53,762 nucleotides of DNA. Source: Oscillatoriales cyanobacterium. Its GTDB lineage: Bacteria; Cyanobacteriota; Cyanobacteriia; CACIAM-69d. The notes beneath the pieces are model-generated. The model ran no database searches. It worked only from the letters and a program-made list of their open reading frames with translations, and was not told the origin of the DNA. Numbering within the stretch: the first letter of the stretch is position 1; every line of letters begins with the position of its first letter. The translations under genes were made by a program, and so were the position numbers. The DNA lies in contig RDXB01000038.1 in assembly GCA_004292515.1 (NCBI GenBank), positions 1 through 53,762 of the forward strand. Reading direction: 5' to 3'. Below are positions 14,399 through 42,479 of this stretch, in pieces.

Positions 14399-15311
14399 GG
14401 CTGTCTTTCTCGTTTCACTCTGCCTGCCAAGGGGTCGATCGGGGTGCGCTGGGCTAACGACTCAGACCAGATGACTGGTCATTAGGATAAGGTGGCACTA
14501 CCGGTAATGACTAGCAACTGCAACCGATCCAGATGGCGCGGACTGGGGCGCGATCGGGGCTGCTGATGCTGATTTTGTCCTGATGTTAACCGCTTCGATC
14601 GAGTCTCCCAAGCATGGGTCACCCATAGCCAGCACTATCGGTTTAGACGAAACGAGCGGAATCATCAGACGGGAAACTGGTGAGTGAGCGCGAGCGGTCA
14701 GGTTGAGGCGACCTCAGCCGTCATCGATCATGATCTGAGTGGTTGAGAAACCTAACGGTTGGCATCCTCCCCAGCCTGGAGAAGTGGGGATTTTGGCTCT
14801 AGTTAAACAACAAAGGCTGCTTGCCTAGACCACGGGTTGATGCTTCATCGACCGCTACCAGAAGACTGGTTGTACGCAGGGTTGTACGCAGGTCTCCACA
14901 TCCGTTTAGCGTCTCGGGCTGCCCACCCGCGACTGGCAAGACAAGCCTTGCAGTGTACCAATACTCTAGTGCAAGATCGCAGGGTCTTCGACAGCAAGAC
15001 TCGGTAAGCTTTACTATCGCTTTGTCAGTGCGATGGCACTGATTATAGCCTTGTGATGGACGAGCAACGGATGCGATCGCGGTGAGTCAAGGGTTACAAG
15101 CTTGTCCTATGACCTGACCACCCCCATGGGGACAACACCCAGCCCGCCGCCTGTCCTACCGGCTCACGCGCACAGACCAGTTGGGCAAGCGTAAACGATG
15201 CCGGTACGCTTTTACAACTCTTGACGGCCAGCTCGGCAATGTCCTAGCACCGGTTGTGCCGGTTTGCGCAAGAGGCTAATCAACAGTCTATTCTCTGACA
15301 GTCCCTGAACA
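14399..15311. other. 913-base spacer with an IS200/IS605-like remnant
   Basis: No intact gene is supported. The centre (14755-15060) looks like the 3' end of a tnpB element on the minus strand. A direct repeat GTTGTACGCAGG occurs twice (about 14869-14892). A hairpin CACCGGTTGTGCCGGT (about 15246-15261) lies downstream of hmpA on the minus strand and may attenuate readthrough. Confidence 0.5.
14755..15060 (-). mobile_element. Probable IS200/IS605-family 3' remnant (tnpB tail and right end)
   Basis: Read on the minus strand, the segment ends in CCCCACTTCTCCAGGCTGGG followed by GAGGATGCC. That is the hairpin plus GGGGAGGATG signature usual at right ends of IS200/IS605 (tnpB) elements. Just before it a frame reads CGDLRTT...LLVAVDEAST, reminiscent of OrfB/TnpB C-termini and overlapping where a guide RNA would lie in an active element. 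No zinc-finger or RuvC coding remains. The assignment rests on pattern memory of these ends, not on an alignment. Confidence 0.4.
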
Positions 15312-16580
15312 TCAGGCCTGAGCTGTGGCCGACGAAGCCGCCGACGAAGCCGCCGATGAAGCCGCCGACGTTTGGGCCAACGCCGGGTCAGCAGCCCCCG
15401 CCAGACCGTTGACTGTGGCTCCATCGAGATGATGGCAATGGGCATCGCCGATATACCGTTCCACCAAAATCTTCAGCTCGTGTTTTTTGAAGGGTTTCGT
15501 GAGGTAGTCCGTGGCTCCGGCGAGACGGGCCCGAGCGCGATCGAGCAGGCCATCCCGCCCCGTAATCATCACGATCGGGGTCTGGCGAAAGAGATGCGAC
15601 TGGCGCAGCATGGCGCAAAGGTCATAACCATCCACATGGGGCATGGCAATGTCGCACAGGATCAAATCTGGCCGCAGCTCAAATAATTGGCCCAGCGCTT
15701 CCACGGAACTGAGGAAGCCGGTTACGTCATAGCCCAGCAAACGCAGCCCCTGCTCGATCGCCCGACAAACCGCTGGACTGTCTTCAATGCAAGCAATCCG
15801 GGGTGGACGATCCACATCGGGGGCAACGATCACCTGCTGCCAGCGCGATCGGGCCGCCGGATGCTCCAGCGGAGGCTCCACCAACTGCACTAGCCCCTCT
15901 TGGATGTAGGGATAGAGCACTTGGGCCACAGACACCAGGGGGCGCAAGCGATAGCGGGCAATTTGGCGCAGGGCGATCGACCCGGTGGCCCATTCGCTAA
16001 AGGTTTGCAGCGTCTTGGGCGGCAGCACCTCGCGCAGGCGCTGCACATCCGTCAACACAGGGCACAAGTCCGGTGATGGAATGTGGGGATAGAGCTGCTT
16101 CCAGGTGTGTAATTCTTGGGCTACCTGCGTCAACAGGGGACTCAGGCTAAAGCTGGCCAGGTGGGGGGCGATCGCTGCCCCTGTGTGCAAGATAAATCGC
16201 CCTTCATGCAAATTCAGCAGATCAAACAACGCCTCATGAACCATCGCTTGCAGAATTTTGCGGGCCTGGGATGGCTCCAAGCGATGGGCTTCAATCAATG
16301 ACCATAGATAGCCATATTCCAGCTCGCCGAGGGCCGCATGGTCTGTGGTGAGTTCGTTGAGGGTCGTCCCCAGTTGGTAGTGATGCAAGTAGTCCCGTAG
16401 CCGAGTTGTGCCCACCTCTGTGGAAGTGCAGTAGACGATCGCCCCCTGTTGCAGAAACACAAACCAACAGCGGCGATCGCCCTCGGTTTGGGACTCCACA
16501 TAGAGTTCACCCGTGCGTTGGCCCAACTCAATTAGGTGCAGGAGGCTGCGAATATCAATCTCGCTCAGTTGTCCTTGCAT
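15312..16580 (-). CDS. hmpA: PatA-family response regulator (HmpA/PilG)
   Basis: This 422-residue protein has an N-terminal PATAN/DUF4388-type domain (MQGQLSEIDIRSLLHLIELGQRTGELYVES), a middle helical region, and a C-terminal receiver at about 260-380 (IEDSPAVCRAIE, phosphoacceptor Asp near 308 in LILCDIAMPHVDG, TKPF). This PatA-like architecture is typical of the first gene in cyanobacterial pil/hmp/pix clusters, where it acts with the CheY partner. The last residues are an Ala/Ser repeat (ASSAASSAASSA) encoded by a short tandem repeat at 15329-15371. hmpF is divergent, 810 bases away. Alternative names are pilG and pixG. Confidence 0.83.
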   Translation of the reverse strand: MQGQLSEIDIRSLLHLIELGQRTGELYVESQTEGDRRCWFVFLQQGAIVYCTSTEVGTTRLRDYLHHYQLGTTLNELTTDHAALGELEYGYLWSLIEAHRLEPSQARKILQAMVHEALFDLLNLHEGRFILHTGAAIAPHLASFSLSPLLTQVAQELHTWKQLYPHIPSPDLCPVLTDVQRLREVLPPKTLQTFSEWATGSIALRQIARYRLRPLVSVAQVLYPYIQEGLVQLVEPPLEHPAARSRWQQVIVAPDVDRPPRIACIEDSPAVCRAIEQGLRLLGYDVTGFLSSVEALGQLFELRPDLILCDIAMPHVDGYDLCAMLRQSHLFRQTPIVMITGRDGLLDRARARLAGATDYLTKPFKKHELKILVERYIGDAHCHHLDGATVNGLAGAADPALAQTSAASSAASSAASSATAQA

Positions 16581-17390
16581 GGGGATGGGATCATGGGGCA
16601 GTCAAAGCGTAGGGTCTATCAACCGTTAACCGTCAATGCCAACGATGCAGCACGGCCCGATGCTGCCCCCATGCTAGCCGATCACCCATCCCCCGATCGC
16701 GGGTCGCCGTTCCCCACAAGCCCTGAGCGATCCTGACCCCCTGTCCCGGCGATCGATCCCTATCATTAGAACAATCCCGAGAACGATCTCAAGAACGATT
16801 TCAATCGCAACGACAACCTGCATCACGACCCGCATCACGACGCACATCACGTTGATCCGGTGACGGAGATCGATGGTAGAGAGTTTCGAGCCTCGCATAG
16901 AATGTGGGGAAGCATGGGTCGATGTCAGGGGCGATCGAAGTGCTCAATGGAGTCCTCTGGACAATCGGGGGGCTGCCCATCGCTCGGTCTTGGGTGCTGA
17001 TTTGCCGGCGGATGTCCTGAACCCGATGGCCAACGCCCAGGGCTGCCGCCGCCACTGCCTAGAATCAAGACCAAGCCCCAAGACCAAGACTCAAGACCAA
17101 GACTCAAGACCAATCACTGTTGCTCGGATTCCAACACCCCAAAACTGTTGAATAGCCTAAAATCCCTCGGGATTTTTTGGTCGATCCATCAAGTTTTGGA
17201 TCTATTCTGAACGTGGCCGGTCTAGAGTAGATCGCCGTGGTAGAGTCCTGGCGGGTTCCGGACGACCTGGGGACTCATTCCCCAAGAACCCAAAACCACG
17301 CATTCTAAGACCTTAGGGTGGCTTCCGAGTCACGGTTATTCATCAGCCATAGCGCGAAGATCTCACTGAACGAACGAGGGGAAGGGCAGC
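16581..17390. other. 810-base divergent spacer between hmpA and hmpF
   Basis: It should contain promoters for both motility operons. Visible features are a CATCACGACSCRCATCACG repeat near 16820-16850, a tandem CAAGACCAAGACT array near 17068-17112, and a stem-loop with a T run at 17159-17178. A 92-codon plus-strand frame ending at 17151 just before that stem-loop has no recognisable domain, and I do not call it a gene. Confidence 0.55.
17159..17178 (+). terminator. Stem-loop with T run in hmpF leader region
   Basis: AAAATCC-CTCG-GGATTTT followed by extra T residues forms a 7-bp stem with a tetraloop and a T tract, about 210 bases before hmpF. It could be an attenuator or the end of a short leader RNA; no coding gene precedes it on this strand. 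Confidence 0.5.
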
Positions 17391-19130
17391 GTGCTGTATC
17401 TTGCGGAAGTCGTCCAAAAACGCGGCTTAATGGGATCAAAGTCGGAGTTGAAGCTGCTAGCTTGTCAGAAGGGCGAACAGTGGAGCGCGATCTCCAATGA
17501 AGATCCCATTCCTTCAGACGAAGCCAGCAACTATAAGGACGGAGCCTTAGTGCTGGTGGATGCGATCGGGTCAGGAGCCGATCGCAAAATTAAGAATATT
17601 CAAGACGGGGCGCGCCAGATTGTCACCTTGTTGCAGGGCTACTCGCGCCAGCAAGAAAAAAGTAAGAGCCAAGAAGAAGAAATCCAACAATGGATGGAGT
17701 CCCTGACTTTTCAGAGTCAGGAGTTGAATCGGCGTGAGATGGAATTGGAGTCTAGCCGCGAGCAGCTAGAACACATGCAACAGGAGTTGCAGCAGCTCGA
17801 TCGCCAACGCCAGGAAGTGCAACAGTCGCGCGAGGCGATCGAACGTCTGAAACAGGAGTCCCAGCAAAAATCCCAAGAAGTGGAACAGGCCTGGGCGCAG
17901 TTGCGAGCAGAGCAAGAACGCCTGCAACAGGAACGGGCTAACCTGCACCAGCAAGCGCAACAGGCGGCCGAGTCCGCTGGGCTAGATCTGGCCCAAGCAC
18001 AGCAGCTCCAGCAGTTGTTGCAGCAAACGGCGGAAGGTGTCGTGGCAGCAGATTTTCTGCGATCGTCCGTGGAAACCTGCTTGCAAATCACCGCTGCCCA
18101 AGAAAGCCTACTGCAAAGCCCAGATGAAGGCAGTGGTGGCTTGAGTCCGGAGTTGCGCGATTGGCTCACGACCGAAACCCAAGCCCTGGCGGAGGCCTGG
18201 CGCGCCTGGACTGAACAACGCGATCGCCTCGATCAAGCTCGCAGTGAATGGCGCGGTCGGCAGGCCACCCTGGAAGCCAAGCAGGAGCAACTGGAGGCGA
18301 TCGAGGCGCAAGTTGCCACCCACCAGGCCCTGAAGGCCTTGGTTGAACAAACCGTTGGAGGGGAAAGTGCCAGTGAGTCCGTCCAGCGCATTCGCCAAGA
18401 TGCGGAGGTGATGGAACTCAGCGAGTTGCAAGAAAAGGTCTCTCAACTGGAGCGAGATCTCAAAAAACTCTCGGGGTTGGTTAGCGATGAGGAAGAGGAG
18501 CTGACCGCCAAGCGCCAGGCGATCGAAGATTTGCAAAATCAGTTGTCACATGCCAGTGAGTATGATCGCCTCAAGCTCGAGGCTGACATTACCGATGAGC
18601 GCGATGGCTGCCAAATGCTGGAAGAAACCCTGGTGGGTCAGCGGCGTAACCTGCAAGAGCGCCAAGACATCCTACAGGTTCACCAAGCAGTCCTGTGCAA
18701 GCGTCAAGGATTAGCAGTGCCACGTCCTGATGGGTCGGTCGATCTATCACCCATTGTGGAGCAGGTGACCCAGGAACTCCAGTCCCTCGAATCCCTCCAA
18801 GGGCAGTTGCGCGATCGCATCAGCACGCTGCAATCAACTGTCCAAGAGGCTGAAATGACGGTGAATCAACAATCTGGCGACTTGCAAGCCCAGTGGGAAG
18901 CGCTGCAAGAACGCGAGCGGCAACTCCAAGCGCAGCAGGCCGAAGCGTTGGCCAGCGGTGGCGGCGCGGGTGGCAACAGCTTGGTGCAGCCCATGGCCGA
19001 GCAGGTAGATGGCTTGCGCCAGCACCTCGAAGCGTTGCTCAGTCACCTCGGCCATGCCGTCGAAACCAGCCACAGTCAGCAGGAAGCGATCGGGCAAATG
19101 CAGCAAATCATCGCCACCCTCACACGCTAG
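17391..19130 (+). CDS. hmpF: Pilus motility taxis protein HmpF
   Basis: This 579-residue protein starts MLYLAEVVQKRGLMGSKSEL, the conserved N-terminal block of HmpF. A short globular region with LKLLACQKGEQWSAI and an ALVLVD segment is followed from about residue 85 by long Gln/Glu-rich coiled coil almost to the C-terminus. In Nostoc punctiforme HmpF localises dynamically to the leading poles and is needed for type IV pilus activity; its gene neighbours the hmp chemotaxis locus, as here. The start is a GTG at 17391 with GAGGGGAAGGG upstream. It converges with tilS, and the last four bases of the two genes overlap. Confidence 0.9.
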   Translation: MLYLAEVVQKRGLMGSKSELKLLACQKGEQWSAISNEDPIPSDEASNYKDGALVLVDAIGSGADRKIKNIQDGARQIVTLLQGYSRQQEKSKSQEEEIQQWMESLTFQSQELNRREMELESSREQLEHMQQELQQLDRQRQEVQQSREAIERLKQESQQKSQEVEQAWAQLRAEQERLQQERANLHQQAQQAAESAGLDLAQAQQLQQLLQQTAEGVVAADFLRSSVETCLQITAAQESLLQSPDEGSGGLSPELRDWLTTETQALAEAWRAWTEQRDRLDQARSEWRGRQATLEAKQEQLEAIEAQVATHQALKALVEQTVGGESASESVQRIRQDAEVMELSELQEKVSQLERDLKKLSGLVSDEEEELTAKRQAIEDLQNQLSHASEYDRLKLEADITDERDGCQMLEETLVGQRRNLQERQDILQVHQAVLCKRQGLAVPRPDGSVDLSPIVEQVTQELQSLESLQGQLRDRISTLQSTVQEAEMTVNQQSGDLQAQWEALQERERQLQAQQAEALASGGGAGGNSLVQPMAEQVDGLRQHLEALLSHLGHAVETSHSQQEAIGQMQQIIATLTR

Positions 19131-21817: not shown

Positions 21818-22762
21818 TCAAGACTGACCGCCCCACCACAACCGCGCACCCGCCAACAGGAGCAACAATCCCCAAGCCCAGCGATCGCGCCCCGTCGATC
21901 GCGGCTCAAACAGGGGCAAGGAGTGGCGATCGGGACTCGTGAACCCCCGCACCTGCATCGCCGAGGCCATTTGGTCAGCTCGCATCAGCAGGTTTTCGAG
22001 CAAGCGTTCAGCCAAAATCAGCCAGATTTTGATCGTGCCGCGCCAGCCCAGCCGCTGCCAGTTAATCGCCCGCGTGCGAATCGATCGCACCAGGTTTTGC
22101 ACCTCTTCTAAGACCAGGGGAATAAAGCGCAACGACAGGGTCAGGGTCAACGTCACCTCCGCCACCGGCAACCCCCAGCGCCCCAGGGGAGCCATCAGCC
22201 ATTCCAATCCCGCCGCAATCTCCTCGGGAGCCGTGGTCAGCAACAACAAGGTGGTGCTGTAAATCAAAATAAAAACCAAACTGCCCACCCGCAGTCCCAT
22301 ATCCAGCGATCGCCGCGAGACTTGGATCGGCCAACGCTGCAGCAACCAGTAGCGATAGGTGGTGGGCTGGGACAGGGTGGGGGCGATCGGGTTGGGCTGT
22401 CCCGCAGGCACAACCGTCGATTGCGGGGATACTGTGCCATTCACTGCCCCATCAGTCGGCGATCGGGCCTGATATTTCAGCCCATAGCCATCGGGAGAAA
22501 TTGCCGTCAGCAGCGTGGCAAAAAACGCCACCAACAACAGCCACACCATTTGCTGTCGCCACACACGCCAGGGAATGCGGGCCGCCAGGGTGATCACAAC
22601 CAACAGGCTCACCAACACCAGTCGCGTCGCCGATCCGGCCAAGATAGGTGTTAATAGAAACGCCAGCAACCAAGCCAACTTGACCCGCGCATCGAGGCGG
22701 TGCAGCCAGGTAACCGGCTGCTCCAAATACAGCCCCAATGGGAGTGATCGCATTAAATCCAT
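21818..22762 (-). CDS. ECF-type transporter transmembrane T component (CbiQ family)
   Basis: About 314 residues starting MDLMRSLPLGLYLEQPVTWL, followed by RLDARVKLAWLLAFLLTPIL and several membrane segments, then the EcfT/CbiQ region with two Ala-Arg-Gly-like cytoplasmic motifs (SIRTRAINW near 215 and MQVRGFTSP near 265). T components couple a substrate-binding S protein to paired ATPases for vitamin or metal uptake. No S component or ATPase is adjacent, so the substrate is open. An upstream ATG at 22855 would add 31 poorly conserved residues; I chose the ATG at 22762 because the conserved start begins there. Confidence 0.8.
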   Translation of the reverse strand: MDLMRSLPLGLYLEQPVTWLHRLDARVKLAWLLAFLLTPILAGSATRLVLVSLLVVITLAARIPWRVWRQQMVWLLLVAFFATLLTAISPDGYGLKYQARSPTDGAVNGTVSPQSTVVPAGQPNPIAPTLSQPTTYRYWLLQRWPIQVSRRSLDMGLRVGSLVFILIYSTTLLLLTTAPEEIAAGLEWLMAPLGRWGLPVAEVTLTLTLSLRFIPLVLEEVQNLVRSIRTRAINWQRLGWRGTIKIWLILAERLLENLLMRADQMASAMQVRGFTSPDRHSLPLFEPRSTGRDRWAWGLLLLLAGARLWWGGQS

Positions 22763-22998
22763 CGACAGTGACCGGAAATGACGGGTTGCATCGAAGACCG
22801 GGCACAACCACCCCAGTAATATCGGGCCGAGCGACTCGACCCCGGCTGTTGTCATCAGGGGGCTAACGCTGTTGCCCCCAAGCTACCGGTGCCAGCCAAG
22901 CAACCGGAGCTAATGGGGGTGCTGCCCTGCTGAGGCGTTTCTAACCCGCGACCAAAATTGAGCGCAACAAATCTGAGCGCGACAAAATCGGGAGCAAT

Positions 22999-24228
<1,230 letters not shown>

Positions 24229-24245
24229 AGGGCAAGCGCAGAAAG

Positions 24246-24842
24246 TTACAAGAAGAGTCGGGGTGGTGTTAGCCAAAAAAGCTGGCTGCGACCGAGGGGC
24301 GATCCCACGGGGGGCAAAATCAAACCAATGATACCTGCTTTTTTCAGCACGATTGTGTTCCGTGTTTCATTCAACACTTCATTCACCGGGGATGGGGCAT
24401 TCTCAATTGCGCTGGGCAGCCCCAGTAATTGCATGGCCCACTGGCTGAGGGTGGGTTCGTGGCCCACGAGGGCCAGCCGATGGGAGGGGCGGTTGGGCGG
24501 TGGGGTGGGGTGGGCTTGCCGCCAGCGATCGAGGTGGGCCAGCCAAGGTTCAATGGGGCGATCGGGACTCAGGGCCGGATCGATCGCCCAGCGCTCCACC
24601 AGGCCGGCTGCCTGCAAAATTTCGGCGGTTTGGCAAGCACGCACCAGGGGGCTGCTCCAGAGGGCATCCCAGCCACAGTCAAGCTGCCGCAACCGTTCGG
24701 CCACTGCTTGGGTCTTGTGCTGGCCGGCCACCGTCAGGGGGCGATCGGCATCCTCAGAATAGTTACCGCGTTCGGCCGCGATGCCGTGACGAATGAGATA
24801 CAACTCTAGAGCCAACTCCAGTTCCATGGGCAAGGGGGCCAC
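24246..24842 (-). CDS. sixA: Phosphohistidine phosphatase SixA-like
   Basis: This is a histidine phosphatase superfamily protein of up to 198 residues. The catalytic RHG is at residues 18-20 (LYLIRHGIAAERG), then DRPLTVAGQHKTQAVAERL, WSSPLVRACQTAEIL, and the second catalytic His in LALVGHEPTLSQW. SixA enzymes dephosphorylate Hpt domains of phosphorelay kinases. The window has an Hpt-bearing CheA (HmpE), but a link is only a suggestion. A second ATG (MELELALEL, residue 6) may be the true start. It lies just upstream of gltA. Confidence 0.85.
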   Translation of the reverse strand: MAPLPMELELALELYLIRHGIAAERGNYSEDADRPLTVAGQHKTQAVAERLRQLDCGWDALWSSPLVRACQTAEILQAAGLVERWAIDPALSPDRPIEPWLAHLDRWRQAHPTPPPNRPSHRLALVGHEPTLSQWAMQLLGLPSAIENAPSPVNEVLNETRNTIVLKKAGIIGLILPPVGSPLGRSQLFWLTPPRLFL

Positions 24843-24863
24843 AGCTCGGCCCTTGAAACGGCT

Positions 24864-25010
24864 TAGGGGCTGTCATCAAATCCCTGAAACCCTGATTCTT
24901 GCGTTGCTTGATCGTGAGGGGCAAGGGGCTTGAGCCAATTGTCTAGGGCGGTTGGGCTAGGAAAATGGGTTGTTCCAGCCCCAATCAAGCTCATTTGATG
25001 ACACGCCCTA
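24864..25010. repeat. MITE family 1, full copy
   Basis: A 147-base element bounded by inverted ends TAGGGGCTGTCATCAAAT and ATTTGATGACACGCCCTA. Its inner block AAACCCTGATTC...GGGGCAAGGGGCTTGAGCC recurs at 29980-30098 and 44020-44100. It has no coding capacity. Confidence 0.7.
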
Positions 25011-25052
25011 GGGATGGGAGGAAATCGCCAATTCGCCAATCGCCAATTCGCT

Positions 25053-25072
25053 AATTGATGACACGCCCTAGG
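25053..25072. repeat. Solo end of MITE family 1
   Basis: ATTGATGACACGCCCTAGG repeats the right end of the preceding element 62 bases further on, after short tandem copies of CGCCAATT. Confidence 0.6.
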
Positions 25073-25097
25073 ACTCATTGTTCATTAGCTGAGTTGA

Positions 25098-28000
25098 TTA
25101 GCTGAGGGGGTTGGGCGGATCGGCCAGCAGGTCAAGTGAGAGTGGGGCTGTGGAATCCACAGGCCCTGGAACTTTCACGCAGTAACGATCGCGACCGCTG
25201 TGCTTGGCTTCGTATAGGGCCATATCCGCAAGGGCAATGGCGCGATCGGGGGTCGAACCACTGCCGGGCATGACGCAGGTGACCCCCAAGCTGACGGTGA
25301 CGATCGAAGCGGCGATCGAGCGTTCATGGGGAATTTGGCAGGCCCGCACCTGTGATCGCACATCGATCGCCACGGTAATTGCCCCTTCGAGCGGTGTATC
25401 CGGCAAGATCAGCACAAATTCTTCACCACCATAGCGGGCCACCAAATCTGCCGGCCGCCGGGCCACCTGCGACAGCACCCGGGCCACTTCGATCAAGCAG
25501 CGATCGCCTGAGGGATGACCGTAGCGATCGTTGTAGGCCTTGAAGCAATCCACATCTAACAAAATCAAACTTAAGGGTTGGTTCGATCGCAGCATCCGCA
25601 TCCATTCCTGGGCCAAATGCTCGTCAAAACAGCGCCGGTTGGCCAACTGCGTCAGACCATCCAGTTGGGCCAAGCGGGCTAGCTCCTGATTCAGCAAGCG
25701 CAGGGACTCTTCGGCCCGCTGGCGTTCGAGCACTTGAATTTGTAGTTGTTGATTCGTGTGAATCAAGGCCGCTGTGCGGGCTGCCACTTCGGTTTCTAGC
25801 GATCGGGAATAGTCCTGCAAGATTTGGGCTGTTTTGCGCCGCTCCGTAATGTCCTGGAAGGCGACCACGGCATAGTCCACCTCACCCTTGCCATTCTGGA
25901 TGGGGACGGCGCGCACTTCGCAGGGTAGCCGCTTGACCCCACAATCAATTTCAATATCCTCTGTGACGAACGGTTGACCAGCCATCGCCATCTGACAGGG
26001 CCACCGATCATGCGGATAGCGGCGATCGCTGCCAGCCAGGTAGAGCCGATCGCCCAAGGGCACATCCCGCAAAAAAGGATGGTCGGCATCAGGCTCTAGG
26101 AGTTGCTGCCCCAAACTGTTGACGTATAACAACTCGCCATTGGCCTGGTAAACCGCCACACCCACCGGCAGGGCATCCAAAAACAGGGCCAGACGCTGCT
26201 CATGCTCGGCGGCAACCCGCCGATTTTCGATCTCCAGAGCGCGAATGGTCAGATGGGCCCGCACTCGGGCCAGCAGTTCGCTTTGGTTAATCGGCTTTTT
26301 CAGGTAGTCGTTGGCTCCGGCGGCAAATCCGGCCACGATGTCGGCGGGGCGGGTTCGATCGCACATCAAAATCACTGGCAAATCCTGGGGCGATCGGGTT
26401 TGGCGCAGTTGTTCGAGCACCTCATAGCCTGTGCATCCGGGCATCAACACATCTAGCAGCACTAAGTCTGGCGGCTCGGCCTGGTTCAGTTGTTCCAAGG
26501 CCGATTGCCCACTGGTGGCCACGGTGACTTGAAACCCAGGCTCCAAGGTCAACCAATTTGCAATACCTTGCAACACGAGCGCATCATCATCCACCACGAG
26601 TACCCGCGCTGAGTGGCTCGGGGCATCGACCGGGAGGGCCGGCAACTGTAGCTCTGGCACTGACCAATTCAGCAGGGACGGGGAGGATTGGGGATGCATG
26701 GTCTGCTGATTGCGCATCCAAGCGATCGGCAGCGTAAATTGAAACACCGTGCCCCCGCCCACGCGCGATCGCACCGATAGGGATCCCCCATGTAGCTCCA
26801 CCAACCGTTTGGTGATGGTTAGCCCCAACCCCATGCCGTAGGGATAGGCCGTGCCTCCAGTCATCGTTGGGCCATCGAGCAGGCGTTGTAATTGCTGGAT
26901 GTTGGTTCCGCACCCCGTATCCGATAACTGCACACAGGTGAGATCAGTCTGACTATCATATTCAGCACTCAGGGTGATGCTGCCACTGGTGGTGAACTGA
27001 ATCGCGTTATCAATCAGGTTGATCAGAATTTGTTGCAGACGATAGGGATCTGCCATCACGGGCGGAAGAGTGGAGGGAATGTCGATGATCAAGTCCAGGT
27101 CTTTGCGATCGGCAAGGGGGCGCAACACGGTGCAGGCCACTTGAGTTGCCGATCGCAGGTCGATCGGTTGGGATTCCAATTGCAGATCGCCATAGCGCAG
27201 CCGCGACAAGTCCAACAGATCGCTCACCAAATGGTGTAGGCGCTGATGGGTGGTTAGCAGCAACTCAAAATTGCGTGTTTGCACCGCATTCAAGGTTCCC
27301 CCGCTGCCCTGCAACAGGGATTCGATCACGCCGATCGCTCCGGCCAGGGGCGATCGCAACTCATGGGAGGTGCTGGCCAGGAATTCATCCTTGAGCCGAT
27401 CGAGCTTGCGTAGTTCTTGGTTTTGGGCCGTGAGCTGTGCAAAAGACCCCTCCACACAGTCCGCCATGAAGTTGAACGCTCGCGCCAAGTCACCCAGCCG
27501 ATCAAGCCGTTGGCCACCCGTGACCCGGCGGCTCCACTGCCCCCGGGCCAATTCGCGAGCTGCGCCATACACTTCCTCGATCGGTCGGGTCAACCACCGC
27601 GCCGTGAGCCAACCCGTACAGCCCAGCAGCCCAATCACCACCCCGCAGATGGCGATCGTTACCCACAGGTTTTGATCCAGCGCGCCACTGTAGGCCGCCT
27701 GGGGCATCACCGCAACCAGCAACCAATCCAACCCGCGATCGTCACGAAACGGGCGAATGTAAAGCCCAAAGTACTGGCGATCCAACTCGATCAACAATTG
27801 GCGATCTTCAAACAGATCGCTCACACGCAGTTCCTGCATCACCCGCCGGGCCGCCGCCGCCATCAGCGGATCGCGACTGTTAACCGCCGCCAACTGCCGC
27901 GCCCCAAAGGCCCGGTTCGATCGCGCCACCACCGGCTCCCCCGTGGAATTAGCCACCAACTGGCCGCTGCGATCCAACACAAAGACCTGTCCCGGCTTAT

Positions 28001-35447: not shown

Positions 35448-36758
35448 ATGGTTCAGACCCCAATCAAACCGGACACCACCCCCAAAATTCCGCCCTCACA
35501 ACATGAATTTGCGGAAGTGATTCATCGCCTCGAAGCAGGCGGCGCAATGTTGCCCGACACGCCCGAAAATCTGATGCAAATCATCGGGATTTACAAGGCC
35601 TATGCGGTGCCGATGGACTTCTATTGGCGCGACTTGCTCTACATTGCCGAAGAAGTTTTTCTGAATCCCTTTCCCTTCTTTAAATATTTCCTACCTCAGA
35701 AATATTTAGACCTGCCCAACCACTACGCAGGCGACACCGCCGACCTGCGAATTTGGCGCGGGATTGCCACGGCACACCCGGAATTGCTCGAGTTTATGAG
35801 CAAGGGTGAAACGATCAAAATGCCGAAGCTGTTCCATCACCTGTGGCACGATCGGGTGAATATGGAATTCGCCGAAGCCTGCATGAACGCCATGCTTTGG
35901 CATCGCAAAATGTATGCGGGTGTGAATCGGTTTGATGATTTCCTGAACACCGAGGAATATCGCCAAAACTGCGATCGGGCAATCAAAGCCTACTTCAAAG
36001 GCAATCCAATCATGTTGGGGATGTACAAACTCTTCCCCGAAGCCTTCATTGAACAATGCCGAATGCTGTCCTACTACAGCAACTTGGGGCTGTTTTGGGA
36101 AATTATGGCTCCCGTGTTCTTTGAGATGTCGGACATCTACGATGAAGGCGGCTTCAAGGGTGTACCCGATGCCATGAACTTCCTGATCAATGGCATCTTC
36201 GCGATTTCCGGCCGCCCGATCTATCACCGGGTAAACATTCGCGGCGAATGGTTTGATTTGGTTCCCAAGAATAAGGGCTTTATGTGGCTCTATGATGCGG
36301 CATTGCCCTACGTGGAAGCGGTGTTTTATCGCACGGCTCCCTTTCGGGGAACCAAGTCCTACAACGCCCAGGCAGGTCAAGTGCCCACAGAGCAAGCGGA
36401 CTTCCATTACGGCATCCTATACGCCGACGTATTCCCCGTAGGAACCGCCGGAATTCCGCCCACGCAGTTGATGCAAGATATGTTGCATTTCCTGCCCCAA
36501 TATCTGTTGGATTACTATCACCAACATTGCCGGGGCGAAGACGATATGTTGATTCAGCTTGGGATTACTTTCCAGCGATCGATGTATTGTGTCACCTCCG
36601 CCGTAATCCAAGCGCTGCGGGCGGCGTTGCTCTATCCCTTGGATGACGAAAACCCAGAGCACCTGATGGCCAACCGCAAATTCTTTGAGGCGCAAATGGA
36701 TCGTTTCAAGCGCCCCGAAGCTCGCCTGCGCGACATCCAAAATCGCGATTATCGCTAA
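35448..36758 (+). CDS. cupA: CO2 hydration protein CupA (ChpY)
   Basis: This 436-residue soluble protein is of the CupA/CupB family, found only in cyanobacterial NDH-1 complexes. Recognisable segments are MLPDTPENLMQIIGIYKAYA, MDFYWRDLLYIAEEVFLNPF, KLFHHLWHDRVNMEFAEACM and a C-terminal MDRFKRPEARLRDIQ. CupA docks on NdhF3/NdhD3 and is thought to turn CO2 into bicarbonate coupled to proton pumping. Length and neighbours favour CupA over CupB. The small cupS gene that usually follows is absent; an IS4-type element begins within two bases of the TAA. No clear Shine-Dalgarno is seen at the usual distance. Confidence 0.93.
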   Translation: MVQTPIKPDTTPKIPPSQHEFAEVIHRLEAGGAMLPDTPENLMQIIGIYKAYAVPMDFYWRDLLYIAEEVFLNPFPFFKYFLPQKYLDLPNHYAGDTADLRIWRGIATAHPELLEFMSKGETIKMPKLFHHLWHDRVNMEFAEACMNAMLWHRKMYAGVNRFDDFLNTEEYRQNCDRAIKAYFKGNPIMLGMYKLFPEAFIEQCRMLSYYSNLGLFWEIMAPVFFEMSDIYDEGGFKGVPDAMNFLINGIFAISGRPIYHRVNIRGEWFDLVPKNKGFMWLYDAALPYVEAVFYRTAPFRGTKSYNAQAGQVPTEQADFHYGILYADVFPVGTAGIPPTQLMQDMLHFLPQYLLDYYHQHCRGEDDMLIQLGITFQRSMYCVTSAVIQALRAALLYPLDDENPEHLMANRKFFEAQMDRFKRPEARLRDIQNRDYR

Positions 36759-36759
36759 G

Positions 36760-38185
36760 TAGGAGCGGGTTTGAAACCATTGGCTTCAACTTAAGAAAGT
36801 TAAGCTGTAGCCATCAATCCTGTAGACAGTTGAGCAATGGCTCGTAGTCGCCCCTACTCAGATGCCAATCCTGATTTGCGTCGGCGCTGCCATGGGGCAG
36901 CGCCCGCCATCGAAGAAATTGAAAAACTGATGTTGAGCTACCTGACTCCCGGGAGCTTTAAGCCTCTGAAGTCAGAGGTGAGTCAACAAGGGAAACGACT
37001 GCGTGACCGATTGTTGACCTTGCCGGTTATGGTAGCCATCGTCTTGGGCTTAGTGTATCGACAACTGCCGAGCCTGAGCGAATTGAGGCGGTTATTGGAG
37101 CGAGAAGGCCTGCTGTGGGTCAAGCCGCTGAAGATTAGCGTGGAAGCCCTGAGCAAGCGGTTGCGAGTGCTCCCAGCCAGTCTATTTCGGCAGTTGCTAT
37201 GGGAAGTGCAAGAGCGACTACCCAACCATCAGTCCGTGAGGGTTCCCCCTTGGAGCGGAGCACCAGACCAGTTCACCGCTTGGTGGATTGCTGACGGTTC
37301 TACGTTGGAAGAGCTGCGTCGGACGCTGAAGATTGAGCGGGCTGTAGAGTCTACGGTACTTGGCGGCAAAATGATGGCCGTGGTGGAAGCCTTCAGTCAT
37401 CAACCGGTGGAGATTCTCTACACCCCGGATGAGAAAGCCAATGACAAGCGGTTTGATGCAGCGTTACTGGAACGATTGCCCCAAAACAGTCTCTTGATTT
37501 TCGACTTGGGCTTCTTCAAATTTCCCTGGTTTGACGAGTTTAGCGAACAAGGGAAATTCTTTGTGACGCGATTACGAGAAAAAACAGCCTATCGCACGGT
37601 GCAATTACTGTCGGAGGGTCAGTTCTACCGAGATGAAATCATTCAGATGGGCCAGTATCGGTCGAATCCTTGTGATCACCCCGTGCGATTGGTGTCTGTG
37701 CGTTGGTCAACCGTCTGGTATCACTACCTGACTAATGTCCTCGACCCCCAACGCTTGACTCCGGAGCAAGTCTGCGAGCTGTACCGCCGCCGTTGGCGGA
37801 TTGAGGATGCGTTTGCCCTCACCAAGCGACTGTTGGGACTGTCCTACTTGTGGGTGTCTGACCGTAATGGAGTGGAAATTCAGATTTACGCGACCTGGAT
37901 TTTTTATCTCTTACTTAATCAGCTGTGCGCGGAAGTGGCTTGGGGGTTGCAACTGCCCTTGGAGCGGATTTCCGTGGAGATGGTGTTTCGAGGGTTTTAT
38001 CACTATGCCCATGCCTATCTCACCGGGGAAGCCGGTCGAATTGTGGACTTTTTCGTAGAGCATCATCAGTTGCTGGGGTTAGTTAAAAACATTCGTCGGC
38101 GACATCGGTTACGAGAGGCTCAACTCAAGGAGATTTGGGCTGCTTCTCCTTAAGTTAAAACCAGTGCCAAACTCACGCACTCCTA
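36760..38185 (+). mobile_element. IS4-family insertion sequence
   Basis: This 1426-base element has imperfect terminal inverted repeats of about 36 bases. The left end is TAGGAGCGGGTTTGAAACC and the right end, reversed, is TAGGAGTGCGTGAGTTTGGC; both run into AACTTAAG. It encloses one transposase gene. The 8-base flanks TCGCTAAG and TTCCCAAG match at only five positions, so no clear target duplication remains. It sits directly behind the cupA stop codon. Confidence 0.75.
36837..38153 (+). CDS. IS4-family transposase
   Basis: This 438-residue DDE transposase appears complete. First catalytic Asp in WWIADGSTLEE near residue 150, second in LLIFDLGFFKF near 222, and a full Y(2)R(3)E(6)K signature in YRRRWRIEDAFALTK near 315-330. 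An N-terminal helical domain (SYLTPGSFKPL, LPSLSELRRLL) precedes the catalytic core. All key residues are intact and there is no frameshift, so the element may still be active. The start ATG at 36837 lies 77 bases inside the left end. Confidence 0.88.
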   Translation: MARSRPYSDANPDLRRRCHGAAPAIEEIEKLMLSYLTPGSFKPLKSEVSQQGKRLRDRLLTLPVMVAIVLGLVYRQLPSLSELRRLLEREGLLWVKPLKISVEALSKRLRVLPASLFRQLLWEVQERLPNHQSVRVPPWSGAPDQFTAWWIADGSTLEELRRTLKIERAVESTVLGGKMMAVVEAFSHQPVEILYTPDEKANDKRFDAALLERLPQNSLLIFDLGFFKFPWFDEFSEQGKFFVTRLREKTAYRTVQLLSEGQFYRDEIIQMGQYRSNPCDHPVRLVSVRWSTVWYHYLTNVLDPQRLTPEQVCELYRRRWRIEDAFALTKRLLGLSYLWVSDRNGVEIQIYATWIFYLLLNQLCAEVAWGLQLPLERISVEMVFRGFYHYAHAYLTGEAGRIVDFFVEHHQLLGLVKNIRRRHRLREAQLKEIWAASP

Positions 38186-38243
38186 TTCCCAAGCCAAAAC
38201 CAAGCGGCGCTAGGCCGAGTCGGGCCGTCCAGGAGGCGATTTA

Positions 38244-39172
38244 TAGTAGATTCAGATAAGAACGAGACGCTATAACCTACAGCAAAGACCTCAGACAACG
38301 AGTCTTGGCAGCAGTCGCGCAGGGGATGCCGCCCAGGACCGCTAGCCGCACCTTTCAGGTCAGTCGGGCTACTCTGTACCGCTGGCTGGCGAATCCAGAC
38401 CCCAAACCCCTGCCCAAGATTCGCAAACGCAAACTCGACCCCCAACAGCTCCTCGACCATGTGCGACGTTACCCGGATGCCCGCCTACGAGACCGGGCTA
38501 CGGAGTTTGGGGTATACCCCAGCGCCATCAGCTATCGGCTCAAGCAACTGAAAGTGACGCGTAAAAAAAACAGTTTCGTTATCGGCAACGCTGTCCTCAA
38601 AAACGGCAGCGCTACCTTCGTCAACTGAGACTCCTTAAACAACAGGGTGGATCGATCATCTACTGCGATGAAAGTGGATTTGAGCCAGATGCCCCTTGTT
38701 TGTTCAGTTGGTCTCCTAGAGGCGTACCGGTCTATGGAGAGCGAAGTGGCGAGCGTCGCCCCCGAGAAAACTTGCTGGTAGCCCGTAGCCGTTACGAATG
38801 GATTGCCCCGGTGTTATTGCAGGGTTCTGTGACTGCGTCGGTATTTGAGCAGTGGTTAACGGAGCAGTTGCTCCCGTCCCTGAGTCAACCCTCCGTGCTC
38901 GTGCTGGATAATGCCGCCTTTCATCGACCAGCTGTGGTGACGGCACTGATGGAGCAGGCCGGTCATCGAGTCTTGTTCTTGCCGCCGTACTCTCCCGACT
39001 TAAACCCAATTGAAGGGGATTTTGCAGCTCTGAAGAAGACTCGCGCCTACGGGTCTTCAGACACCTCAATTGATCAGCTAGTGGCATCGTACCAGCCCAA
39101 AGCGGGCAGACCAGCTCATTCCTACAAGCGAGTCAAACGAATCAAGTGGCTCATTCCTAATTGAAACTACTA
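38244..39172 (+). mobile_element. IS630-family insertion sequence with TA target duplication
   Basis: This 929-base element has inverted ends related over about 25 bases (TAGTAGATTCAGATAAGAAC at left; TAGTAGTTTCAATTAGGAAT reversed at right) and is flanked by TA on both sides (38242-38243 and 39173-39174), as expected for the Tc1/mariner-like IS630 family. It lies between the IS4 element and the primase gene and separates an AGGAGG at about 38231 from the primase GTG at 39184. Confidence 0.75.
38305..39164 (+). CDS. IS630-family transposase, two frames joined by -1 slippage
   Basis: The first frame (to 38628) encodes a helix-turn-helix domain (ASRTFQVSRATLYRWLANP, then AISYRLKQLKVTRKK). At the A8 run 38563-38570 a -1 shift continues into QFRYRQRCPQKRQRYLRQLR and the DDE core: Asp in IIYCDESGFEPD, Asp in LVLDNAAFHR, Glu in YSPDLNPIEGDF. 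Programmed -1 frameshifting on an A run is known in this family. Relatives begin MxYSxDLRQRV; here the homologous codon is ATA (38272), so translation must start at ATA or at the TTG at 38305, which suggests weak or lost expression. The C-terminus carries about 22 extra residues after LVASYQ. Confidence 0.75.
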
Positions 39173-39183
39173 TAGAAGGCCAA

Positions 39184-41241
39184 GTGGCCCCCAAAAAATC
39201 CAAGGCAGAGCCACCCAAGCCCAGCGAAATCGCCCGCGACTTAGCCGAACGCTATCGCCCATTTCTGTCCTACGACCCCGATCTAGAGCAGTGGTATCGC
39301 TACGAAGCCAAAACGGATGGCATGTGGTCGCCTGAGACGCAACACCACATCAACGCTATGCTGCAAGCCGAACTGGACAGCAAATCAGACTGTGCAGGCT
39401 ACAACGCGGGCTTTGTTCGATCGGTGCGTGAGTTGCTACAGGCCTATTTGCTCGTCAGCGACTGGGAAGAACCCGATGGCGTTCTCCCCTTCCGCAACGG
39501 CGTGCTTAACCTCAACACCATGCAGCTCCATGGCCACGCACCCAGCAATCGGCTGCTGTGGTCATTGCCCCGCGATTACGACCCCACGGCCACCGATTGG
39601 GACACGATCGGCGATTGGCTCGACTATGCCACCGGGGGCGATCGCGGCCTGCAAAAAATCCTGCTTTGCTTCCTGAATGCCACCCTCAAGCGCCGTGCTG
39701 ACTTGCAACGATTCCTGCATTTGACCGGGCCCGGTGGCACGGGTAAGGGCACATTCACCCGGTTGGCGATCGCCTTGATTGGCCAGCAAAACACCCACAG
39801 CACCAGCCTCAGTGCTATTTGCTCAGACAAGTACGACCTGGCCAACTGCTACCGCAAACGCCTGGTGGCCTTGCCTGACGAAGACACATTCCATGGCGGG
39901 CTATCGAAGTTCAAAAGCCTGACAGGGCAAGACCCCCTACGCGCTGAATTCAAGTTCAAATCAGCCTTTGCCTTCACCTACGACGGCATGGTGTTGGTCG
40001 GGTCAAACTTCCCGATTTTCAGCGGCGATCACAGTTCCGGCATGAGCCGCCGCGCCCTGGTAGTGCCCTTCACCAAAACAGTGCCACCGGGCCAGCGCAA
40101 AAACCTCGATCGCGCCTTCCAACCCGAGCTGTCCGCCCTGACAAATTTCGTTCTGAGCATTCCCGATCTCGAAGTGACTGACGTGCTGTTGCAACTCAGC
40201 GACCCGACCCCAGCGGCGATCGCCCAAACCTGGGAATATCGGATGCGATCGGACAATCTAGCCTCATGGGTCAACGATCACCTCATCCCCACCGACGATC
40301 TAAACGATTGGGTCTTTGTTGGACAAACCCGCGACGATGCTGGTAGCCTGTACGCAAGCTACTCAGCAATCACGTTAGCCACAGGTGGCAAGCCGCGCAG
40401 CAACCGCGAGTTTTCCCCGGCGCTAATGGATCTACTGAGCAACCAATTGGGCTGGGAAGTAGAGTTGGCCCGCTCCACAGACAGCACCTCGCGGCGAAAA
40501 GTCCTACGCGGGGTGCGAGTTCGCATGGAATATGACCGAGCGCCCTACCCCATCGAGGCACTTGGTGAAACGCCTGCCCACGCAAAACCAAGCATTTCAA
40601 GCACTGAATCTATAAGAGTTGGGAGTGATCGGATCACCGGATCACCTCAAGCCCCAAGCGGGTTTGAGGGCGATCCCTATCGGATCAGTGATCCGATCAC
40701 TCTCAGCGATCGCCTGATCGCCCAAAAAAGTGATCCTGAGACGCACCGGATCACTGATCCTCAAAAACAGCCCTCAAACCCTTACCCAGTAAGCGGTGAT
40801 CCGGTGATCCGGTCAACTTATCCACTTGCGGAAAATTTTTCCGAAGGAAAAAACGCGCATTTAACGGCCGAAATTTCTGACGACCAAAATCCCAAAACCT
40901 TTGAGCCACAACCATTTGCCCAGCATCAAGAGAATGGTGCAACAGCAGGGGCAAGTGATGAGGCGGGCCGCGATCGAGTGAATGAGTTGCTGTCTCGGAT
41001 TCGCTCAATGCCAGACAGGGCAAGCGGTGATCATGTGAAGCCGCCAAAACCGAAAACTGTTGAGGAATTGAACGCCCAAATCAAAAATCGTCGCTATCGG
41101 TTAAACGCACCCAAGCACAAACGCAACGGGGCGATCGTCCGAGTGATTGGGCAGCCAGGGGAAAAGACCCGCGTGGAAGAGTGCGGCAAGTTTGGGTCAT
41201 TCGTGGTCGATTTCGCGCACCTGGAGCCGATCGATGAGTGA
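39184..41241 (+). CDS. P4-type phage/plasmid primase-helicase (SF3, D5 family)
   Basis: This 685-residue protein has a D5_N-like region (LPFRNGVLNLNTMQLHG, then LPRDYDPTATDW) and an SF3 helicase core: Walker A GPGGTGKGTF near 181-190, Walker B LVALPDED near 228, motif C MVLVGSNFP near 269, and an arginine-finger-like MSRRALVVPF. No primase TOPRIM or zinc domain is present, so it may act only as an initiator helicase. Residues 479-545 are a linker encoded by DNA full of GGATCAC/GTGATCC repeats. The C-terminal 50 residues form a small basic and then beta-rich domain. The GTG at 39184 is preceded by GAAGG; an upstream in-frame TAG lies beyond the IS630 insertion. It overlaps the integrase gene by 8 bases. 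Confidence 0.82.
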   Translation: MAPKKSKAEPPKPSEIARDLAERYRPFLSYDPDLEQWYRYEAKTDGMWSPETQHHINAMLQAELDSKSDCAGYNAGFVRSVRELLQAYLLVSDWEEPDGVLPFRNGVLNLNTMQLHGHAPSNRLLWSLPRDYDPTATDWDTIGDWLDYATGGDRGLQKILLCFLNATLKRRADLQRFLHLTGPGGTGKGTFTRLAIALIGQQNTHSTSLSAICSDKYDLANCYRKRLVALPDEDTFHGGLSKFKSLTGQDPLRAEFKFKSAFAFTYDGMVLVGSNFPIFSGDHSSGMSRRALVVPFTKTVPPGQRKNLDRAFQPELSALTNFVLSIPDLEVTDVLLQLSDPTPAAIAQTWEYRMRSDNLASWVNDHLIPTDDLNDWVFVGQTRDDAGSLYASYSAITLATGGKPRSNREFSPALMDLLSNQLGWEVELARSTDSTSRRKVLRGVRVRMEYDRAPYPIEALGETPAHAKPSISSTESIRVGSDRITGSPQAPSGFEGDPYRISDPITLSDRLIAQKSDPETHRITDPQKQPSNPYPVSGDPVIRSTYPLAENFSEGKNAHLTAEISDDQNPKTFEPQPFAQHQENGATAGASDEAGRDRVNELLSRIRSMPDRASGDHVKPPKPKTVEELNAQIKNRRYRLNAPKHKRNGAIVRVIGQPGEKTRVEECGKFGSFVVDFAHLEPIDE
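40625..40843. other. Iteron-like repeat cluster with DnaA-box-like site (putative origin inside the primase gene)
   Basis: Repeats of GTGATCC or its complement occur as GTGATCGGATCAC (40625-40637), CGGATCACC (40638), the perfect palindrome CGGATCAGTGATCCG (40681-40695), CGATCAC (40694), GTGATCC (40730), CGGATCACTGATCC (40747-40760), and two tandem GGTGATCC (40795-40810). TTATCCACT, eight of nine matches to the E. coli DnaA box TTATCCACA, follows at 40818, then the palindrome CGGAAAATTTTTCCG (40829-40843). Origin function is inference from this layout and the helicase gene that contains it. Confidence 0.5.
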
Positions 41242-42319
41242 AGCTGCTGAAATCCGCCTAAAGCAGGCCAACGGACGGCTCAATCGAGACAAAACCCGGG
41301 TCTCGATTGCCGCGATCAATGGCTGGCTCTACCTCACAGCCATCCTGCCCCCGCTCCCCTCTGAATCTGGTACGCAAAACAAGCAACGCCGGCTCTCCCT
41401 CAAGCTGCCCCTAACCATCGAATGCGTCTCCCTCGCCGAATCTCGGGCCCGAGACCTGGCCCGATCGCTCAGGGATGGCTCGTTTCACTGGGGTGATTGG
41501 CGGCCCGAATTCAAACAGTCCCCAGTCAGTGACGCGATCGGCGCATGGATCGATCGGTTCGAGGTGGACTACTTCCACCGGCGCAAACGCAACCCCAAAA
41601 GCCTCACCACCTGGCGACACGACTACCGCAAGATTTTCGATAAGTTGCCGCTCGATCGCCCCCTCAGCGCCGATGAATTGCGGGCGATCGTCATCGCCAC
41701 CGAACCCGACAGCCGCACCCGACAGCGAGCCGTCAAAGTCTTGAGCGCCCTGGCCCGCTTTGCCGGTCTGGACATCAACCTCAAGCCCTACCTAGGGAGC
41801 TACGGCATCCTCCAAGCCGCCCCGCGCGACCTGCCCGACGATGCCACGATCCTCCATTGGCGCGATCGCATCCCCAATGAGTCCTGGTGTTGGGCCTATG
41901 GGCTAATTGCAGCCTATGGGCTACGGCCTCACGAGCTATTCCACGCACGCTTCATCAAGCCGCCCCGCCTCGACATTCTGGACGGCAAAACCGGCCCCCG
42001 CATCACCTTCCCCTTGCTGCCCACCTGGTTTGATGACTGGGATTTAGCAACATGGCGGTTGCCAAAGTGCAGCGGCCCCGACAATTCCGCCCTGGGCAAT
42101 CGCGTCACCCACGCCTTCCGCCGCTACAAAATCCCCTTTTCGCCCTATTACTTGCGCCACGCCTGGGCCGTGCGTGCGATCGGCCTGCTCGATGTCAGCT
42201 TGGCGGCCCAGCAGTTGGGCCACTCGGTCGAGGTGCATACCAAGGTCTACCAGCACTGGATTAGTGCTGAGGTGCATCAACGGGCCTGGGAAGCGATCGC
42301 CCACCGATCACCTAAATAG
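41234..42319 (+). CDS. int: Tyrosine-family site-specific integrase
   Basis: This 361-residue recombinase, starting MSEAAEIRLKQANGRL, has an N-terminal DNA-binding region and a C-terminal catalytic domain: Arg in AYGLRPHELFHAR near 228, box II as YYLRHAWAVR (the usual first His is Tyr; Arg and the second His are kept) near 305, GHS at the third box, and the nucleophile Tyr in TKVYQHW near 338. It overlaps the primase gene by 8 bases (GATGAGTGA), so the two are surely cotranscribed. Its 3' end points at a tRNA gene 87 bases away, the classic arrangement for an element integrated in a tRNA. The sequence upstream of the ATG is the primase tail, so the longer in-frame start at 41147 is unlikely. 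Confidence 0.85.
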   Translation: MSEAAEIRLKQANGRLNRDKTRVSIAAINGWLYLTAILPPLPSESGTQNKQRRLSLKLPLTIECVSLAESRARDLARSLRDGSFHWGDWRPEFKQSPVSDAIGAWIDRFEVDYFHRRKRNPKSLTTWRHDYRKIFDKLPLDRPLSADELRAIVIATEPDSRTRQRAVKVLSALARFAGLDINLKPYLGSYGILQAAPRDLPDDATILHWRDRIPNESWCWAYGLIAAYGLRPHELFHARFIKPPRLDILDGKTGPRITFPLLPTWFDDWDLATWRLPKCSGPDNSALGNRVTHAFRRYKIPFSPYYLRHAWAVRAIGLLDVSLAAQQLGHSVEVHTKVYQHWISAEVHQRAWEAIAHRSPK

Positions 42320-42377: not shown

Positions 42378-42406
42378 AAAGTCTTGTTTCTACTGGGTTT
42401 CAAGGA

Positions 42407-42479
42407 TGGCTCAGGCGGGATTTGAACCTGCGACCTTGGGCTTATGAGTCCCCTGCTCTAACCACTGAGCTACTGAGCC
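42407..42479 (-). tRNA. tRNA with anticodon CAT (tRNA-Ile2 or elongator tRNA-Met)
   Basis: A 73-base cloverleaf: acceptor GGCTCAG pairs perfectly with CTGAGCC, D arm GCTC...GAGC, anticodon loop CTCATAA, T loop TTCAAAT, discriminator A, and no encoded CCA. The D arm and start of the anticodon arm (TAGCTCAGTGGTTAGAGCAG) match E. coli tRNA-Ile2 (CAT) as I remember it, so it may be the TilS substrate; elongator Met is the alternative. The anticodon stem has G27-A43 and A31-G39 mismatches and the T stem an A51-C63 mismatch. Together with the neighbouring integrase, these raise doubt that it is a fully normal tRNA. Confidence 0.8.

Follow-up and report, generated by a model that had tools for sequence, protein, structure and literature searches.

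The helper-dependent satellite phage P4 encodes a primase-helicase initiator of the P4 family, the alpha protein, and has an iteron-based origin, the main ori and the crr iterons being located outside the alpha gene. The origins of SaPIs include iteron sets around an AT-rich region. The C-terminal domain of SaPI Rep helicases recognises an iteron origin located directly downstream of the rep gene and, in the same way, Cch2 of SCCmec, which also has a Primase_Cterm domain, binds through its C-terminal domain direct repeats located downstream of its own operon; the Rep of SaPI5 is a primase-helicase fusion (PMC7581432). In phage lambda, the origin iterons and then the AT-rich region are both found within gene O (PMC5043065).

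Concerning cyanobacteria, CyRepA1 and CyRepA2 (pSYSA, pCC5.2, pAQ1) are plasmid initiators in which a primase-like domain, DUF3854, is present; the CyRepA2 gene with short flanks replicates, and pCC5.2 is reported to replicate by rolling circle (PMC10079941, PMC6066503). For the plasmids of cyanobacteria, the mapping of origins is still poor, the cited vector papers dealing with other Rep types. No report of in-gene iterons in the primase-helicase family considered below was found in the open-access literature.

Repeats inside a helicase gene of the window

The window, i.e., the whole 53,762-nucleotide stretch analysed here, comes from contig RDXB01000038.1 of an Oscillatoriales cyanobacterium. 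A preliminary description had proposed a replication origin embedded in the reading frame of a primase-helicase. The gene and the features that it contains are the following:

39184..41241, + strand: P4/D5-type helicase gene fragment, 685 aa (TIGR01613, D5_N + DUF5906), N-terminal primase half missing
40573..40974, + strand: linker coding region (residues 464-597), predicted disordered, between the winged-helix region and the C-terminal beta domain
41059..41238, + strand: small C-terminal beta-domain (residues 626-685, AlphaFold2 model)
40621..40815, no strand: iteron array, nine GTGATC/GATCAC units in 3 frames and both orientations
40631..40646, - strand: tandem iteron pair GGTGATCCGGTGATCC, inverted copy, one of two exact genome copies
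40795..40810, + strand: tandem iteron pair GGTGATCCGGTGATCC, direct copy, one of two exact genome copies
40774..40792, + strand: CAAACCCTTACCCAGTAAGC region, window version of the AACCCTTGC box, which lies between iteron sub-clusters in homologues
40812..40925, no strand: candidate unwinding region, moderately AT-rich (56% AT vs 44% for the ORF), containing TTATCCACT and CGGAAAATTTTTCCG

The encoded protein reaches 119.3 bits with the curated HMM TIGR01613 (P4-family phage/plasmid primase, cut-off 108.7) and is in this respect like P4 alpha; D5_N and DUF5906 were found in it, DUF3854 and DEXDc being absent. Its AlphaFold2 model (mean pLDDT 74.9) is ordered up to residue 463 and displays at residues 389-446 a winged-helix-like helix-helix-strand-strand pattern, a putative DNA-binding region. 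Among PDB structures, 7OLA, the primase-helicase of SaPI5, comes closest (Foldseek E 6e-20; profile E 1e-27). The protein thus shares with SaPI Rep its helicase fold as well as the association of D5/Primase_Cterm with a predicted C-terminal DNA-binding region. Beyond it, the linker has a mean pLDDT of about 28-48 per 10-residue block (<50 throughout), in agreement with the preliminary remark that this part of the protein is low in conserved motifs.

The nine GTGATC/GATCAC units are found at 40625-40809 (185 nt) inside the reading frame, their starts and strands being 40625+, 40632-, 40640-, 40688+, 40695-, 40730+, 40749-, 40796+ and 40804+. Seven of them are exact GTGATCC/GGATCAC, and the repeat cluster described previously is real. 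They are spread over the three reading frames and encode about residues 480-542, entirely within the predicted disordered linker. GATC occurs 14 times in 195 nt of the array.

The preliminary description had suggested judging the heptamer against codon-shuffled controls. In 20,000 synonymous-codon shuffles that kept the peptide and drew the codons from the gene itself, the top 7-mer count averaged 2.4 and never exceeded 6 (7 in the array), GTGATC averaged 1.2 with a maximum of 6 (9 in the array) and GATC averaged 5.0 with a maximum of 11 (14 in the array); 0/20,000 shuffles reached any of the three observed values. Across the 53.7 kb of the window, no other cluster of a 7-mer or of GATC is as dense as the array. 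Furthermore, the tandem pair matches the 3.98 Mb genome perfectly at two sites only, which are both within the array and mutually inverted. The array is not a dispersed repeat.

These data make it very improbable that the units result from chance, from a host GATC/HIP1-like bias or from a mobile palindromic repeat inserted in the gene. It is true that GATC-rich words are common in the genome and that 8 GTGATCC are expected in the window. However, the array exceeds the codon-matched shuffles, has the highest density of the window and is unique in the genome, and in many further genomes arrays of other sequences occupy this position (see next section).

After the array, the palindrome reported previously is present (CGGAAAATTTTTCCG at 40829-40843, with an odd centre). 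The window box, AAACCCTTACCCAGTAAGC at about 40775, is located right ahead of the direct iteron pair. In addition, GGGTTTGAGGGC (40660-40671) and GCCCTCAAACCC (40770-40781) form a perfect 12-bp inverted repeat, the conserved box being thus paired with a reversed partner. If the two iteron pairs are included, the array is framed by one large inverted repeat, an arrangement not noticed among the examined homologues.

Linker arrays of homologous primase-helicases

The helicase domain was the sole criterion for gathering homologues, which were drawn from whole genomes, plasmids, phages, genome_contigs and viral contigs. Scanning genome_contigs and viral_contigs with a single sequence gave no close relatives of the window protein, whereas an alignment query recovered relatives. 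After removal of near-duplicates, 72 homologues from genome, plasmid or phage records were retained, including the window and several metagenome-assembly records, all with a tail of 240 nt or more beyond the helicase domain. The 480 nt following this domain were searched for a 7-mer present at least 5 times and compared with codon shuffles (p floor 1/301).

Such a 7-mer is found in the linker of 62/72 homologues, mostly cyanobacterial plasmids, and p<=0.01 was obtained for 62/72, leaving 10/72 homologues with no significant array. Where these genes encode the helicase, the 7-mer maximum is just 2-4 copies. Among the viral-contig homologues with a usable tail, 2 of 5 non-redundant ones are significant. 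Many carriers are complete circular plasmids in which this primase-helicase is the evident replication gene.

The repeated sequence varies from one replicon to another (GTGACGG, GTGATGG, GTGTGTA, GTGGAGG, GTGACAACC, CTGACAACC, GTAACAACC, ATGTAGGGT and others). A GTGA-type core is frequent, and GTGATCCG of the window is consistent with it. The spacings between iterons cluster near 9-12, 22-24 and 31-34 bp. Exactly one orientation switch is seen in 42/62 arrays, the repeats facing each other across an AT-rich gap (median 113 bp). In 42/42 cases the AT content of this gap exceeds that of the arrays (0.64 vs 0.47), a contrast that is partly accounted for by the GC content of the iterons themselves. 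These 42 homologues display the SaPI-type arrangement of iteron sets flanking an AT-rich region, whereas the window shows iterons, box and a modest AT-rich part. Its array is atypical: the orientations are mixed ahead of the box, no second facing cluster follows the AT-rich part, and this part has an AT content of only 56%.

The AACCCTTGC box (<=1 mismatch) is found in 23/62 linkers, whereas the coding DNA upstream has a background of 0.053 per 500 nt. For the near-perfect DnaA box noticed previously, only the motif itself holds: TTATCCACT is present at 40818-40826, but DnaA boxes are found in 4/62 homologous linkers, at a density of 0.14/kb vs 0.17/kb in upstream coding DNA. The DnaA box was rejected as an origin part common to the family on the basis of this lack of enrichment.

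Synonymous conservation, another control mentioned in the preliminary description, was examined at identical-residue codons among homologues, the window protein being without a relative close enough for it. For 59 pairs of related homologues from 39 loci, the pairs being non-independent, the synonymous difference is 4.9% for iteron codons, 18.4% for linker codons outside the iterons and 25.8% for those of the helicase domain. As iteron codons seldom change synonymously, selection appears to act on the DNA. It was already suspected that the DNA rather than the protein was selected, and several features of the family bear this out: arrays of differing sequence at the same place, mixed frames, an origin-like architecture and reduced synonymous change.

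Could the peptide nevertheless be what is selected, a repetitive disordered linker being maintained with DNA repeats as a by-product? Short peptide repeats do exist in some homologues (GDGSGDGS, DDPGDDPG). However, one and the same 7-mer uses 2-3 reading frames in 59/62 arrays, usually on both strands, shuffles keeping the peptide fail to yield the array, and iteron codons resist synonymous change. This explanation is therefore hardly credible.

Partition sites also consist of repeats. The in-gene array could be a centromere, or else an incompatibility or copy-control locus, the origin being elsewhere: iteron arrays also act in copy control, partition proteins bind repeat arrays, and several carriers encode ParA, ParM or ParG. 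Nevertheless, in some carriers par genes and other repeat arrays lie at a distance from the in-gene array, an example being TGAAACA in C057 and HK-02, which precedes rep by about 1.4 kb. Moreover, the array keeps its position behind the helicase domain whichever the par type, and facing arrays flanking an AT-rich gap resemble origins. A partition or copy-control locus is thus unlikely. Analysis of GC skew in 12 complete or near-complete plasmids gave small amplitudes (210-475) and scattered extrema, none of them consistently at the linker, and so lent no support to an origin there.

Several homologues call for individual comments. L115 (Magnetococcales) and L125 (Beggiatoa), titled as non-cyanobacterial metagenome assemblies, have significant facing linker arrays; the in-gene array design may reach beyond cyanobacteria, or these bins may be contaminated. 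Plasmid p4 of Nostoc sphaeroides (L220) carries two full rep genes (14852-17917 and 22239-25502) whose last 1000 nt have the repeated 7-mer CCGTCAC in common. In plasmid3 of Chondrocystis sp. NIES-4102 (L049, 2999-5914), rep is annotated as two genes and the linker holds 3 copies with no significant array, which suggests that this rep gene is decaying. On other plasmids with this Rep, there are genes that look like defence cargo: a CBASS phospholipase and TIR proteins on pP742404 (L046/L217), DpdA and a DndB-like gene on pMIC7113.07 (L219), and PIN/DUF499/DUF1156 genes on pMIC7113.06 (L216).

A candidate origin and its proposed working

The repeats are quite probably the iterons of a replication origin located inside its own initiator gene, from which theta replication would start, the window holding a truncated relic of such a system. 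On the model of SaPI Rep and Cch2, a primase-helicase resembling SaPI5 Rep would bind the short iterons through its C-terminal winged-helix region. Binding would occur at the two facing arrays flanking the AT-rich segment, where the protein could be loaded as two hexamers before the DNA melts, and theta replication of the plasmid or excised element would then start.

Which part of the protein might read the iterons was approached by correlations. Iteron similarity tracks protein similarity (rho about 0.2-0.4). In partial correlations between iteron type and protein domains, no domain stands out as the reader, residues 401-450 giving a weak signal and the AAA core (165-260) the highest value.

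Compared with SaPIs, the putative origin differs by its position, since SaPI iterons are downstream of rep whereas here they are within the gene, ahead of an extra C-terminal domain; furthermore, the carriers are mostly plasmids. These replicons also differ from P4, whose main ori and crr iterons lie outside alpha and which depends on a helper, whereas the carriers here are mostly plasmids. At the sequence level, the iterons share with the lambda origin their position inside the initiator gene. However, lambda O is unrelated, is not a helicase and recruits DnaB via P, and the lambda iterons are four 19-bp inverted-repeat units, whereas here 5-11 units of about 7-10 bp vary from one replicon to another. 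CyRepA proteins likewise act as initiators of cyanobacterial plasmids and have the primase-like domain DUF3854, but their helicase part is DEXDc and not D5/Primase_Cterm, and in-gene iterons are not described in the passages cited.

The simplest reading would be that a downstream origin was absorbed into the gene, as in phage lambda. The segment in which the origin would lie encodes the disordered linker and would therefore tolerate nearly any sequence. These homologues probably form a broad replicon class, mostly of cyanobacterial plasmids, with a SaPI-like origin in the rep linker; the iterons, with their loose GTGA-type core, would diversify between replicons, which presumably makes the plasmids compatible, while the peptide drifts freely.

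An origin inside the rep gene would mean that a single gene brings together initiator, helicase, primase and origin, and one gene fragment would then make up a whole portable replicon. Sequence would be enough to read the origins and iteron types of many plasmids together, and one could directly test how an initiator co-evolves with sites in its own gene. The trick of phage lambda would extend to helicase-type initiators, in a recurrent and diversifying form. As a practical consequence, vectors built with recoded versions of such genes would lose the origin.

An element truncated beside a tRNA-Met gene

The surroundings of the helicase gene comprise the following features:

36778..38166, + strand: DDE_Tnp_1 (IS4-like) insertion sequence, in place of the remaining left arm
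38242..39174, + strand: IS630-family element bounded by TATAGTAG terminal repeats (about 38242 and 39174), which abuts the helicase gene and truncates it
41234..42319, + strand: tyrosine recombinase/integrase (phrog_1 E 4.7e-10; below Pfam cut-off)
42407..42479, - strand: tRNA-Met(CAT), probable integration target, adjoining a synteny break

Full-length homologues (n=63) have a median of 308 more N-terminal residues (minimum 231), which are missing from the window gene. The lost part includes the N-terminal primase domain (DUF3854/Toprim or AEP), the IS630 element abutting the D5_N region. The IS4-like element fills the space up to the end of a CO2-hydration-like gene at 36758. No recognisable primase remnant was seen in the 77 bp separating the two insertion sequences, and no primase N-terminus was found elsewhere in the same genome with a query that is distant.

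Among relatives, the primase module differs: several homologues carry DUF3854, including the full-length L014, L017 and L044, while L048 has DNAG_N/Toprim and the N-terminus of L002 (G020:C10) looks AEP-like by eye. The module appears to have been swapped among helicase relatives.

On the right side, the integrase and helicase genes overlap by 8 nt at the helicase stop codon, and the integrase ends 88 bp short of the tRNA-Met(CAT) 3' end. Synteny with the same-genus genomes L235 and L236 stops at 42397, 10 bp beyond the tRNA 3' end. An integrase adjoining a tRNA 3' end at a synteny break is what is found for mobile elements integrated in tRNA genes. In same-genus genomes, the two flanks of the element are on different contigs, so that a simple empty site cannot be demonstrated. 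The window holds no further copy of the 18-nt tRNA 3'-end stretch (<=3 mismatches) that could be a second att.

The proximity of the integrase raises the question of an operator, through which Rep or another regulator would control the integrase or its own transcription, all the more so as the integrase begins only about 430 bp beyond the array. Yet the array is kept in homologues that often have no direct downstream gene or a gene on the opposite strand, and 6-11 units with an AT-rich centre are more than usual operators contain. This role is thus quite improbable.

The missing primase region, the left arm filled by insertion sequences and the failure to find a second att indicate that the element is a truncated remnant, reduced to helicase and integrase. 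For this copy, the same observations leave unsupported the self-contained excise-and-replicate unit put forward in the preliminary description, of which the in-frame iteron array under DNA-level selection stands. As the gene is truncated, the window copy, a damaged relic probably integrated at the tRNA-Met gene, may be inactive. The same genome encodes two further relatives of the integrase, G000:C98:19945-20982 (L248, 49% identity) and the fragment G000:C80:4946-5206 (L249, 46% identity), which possibly mark other elements of the same kind.
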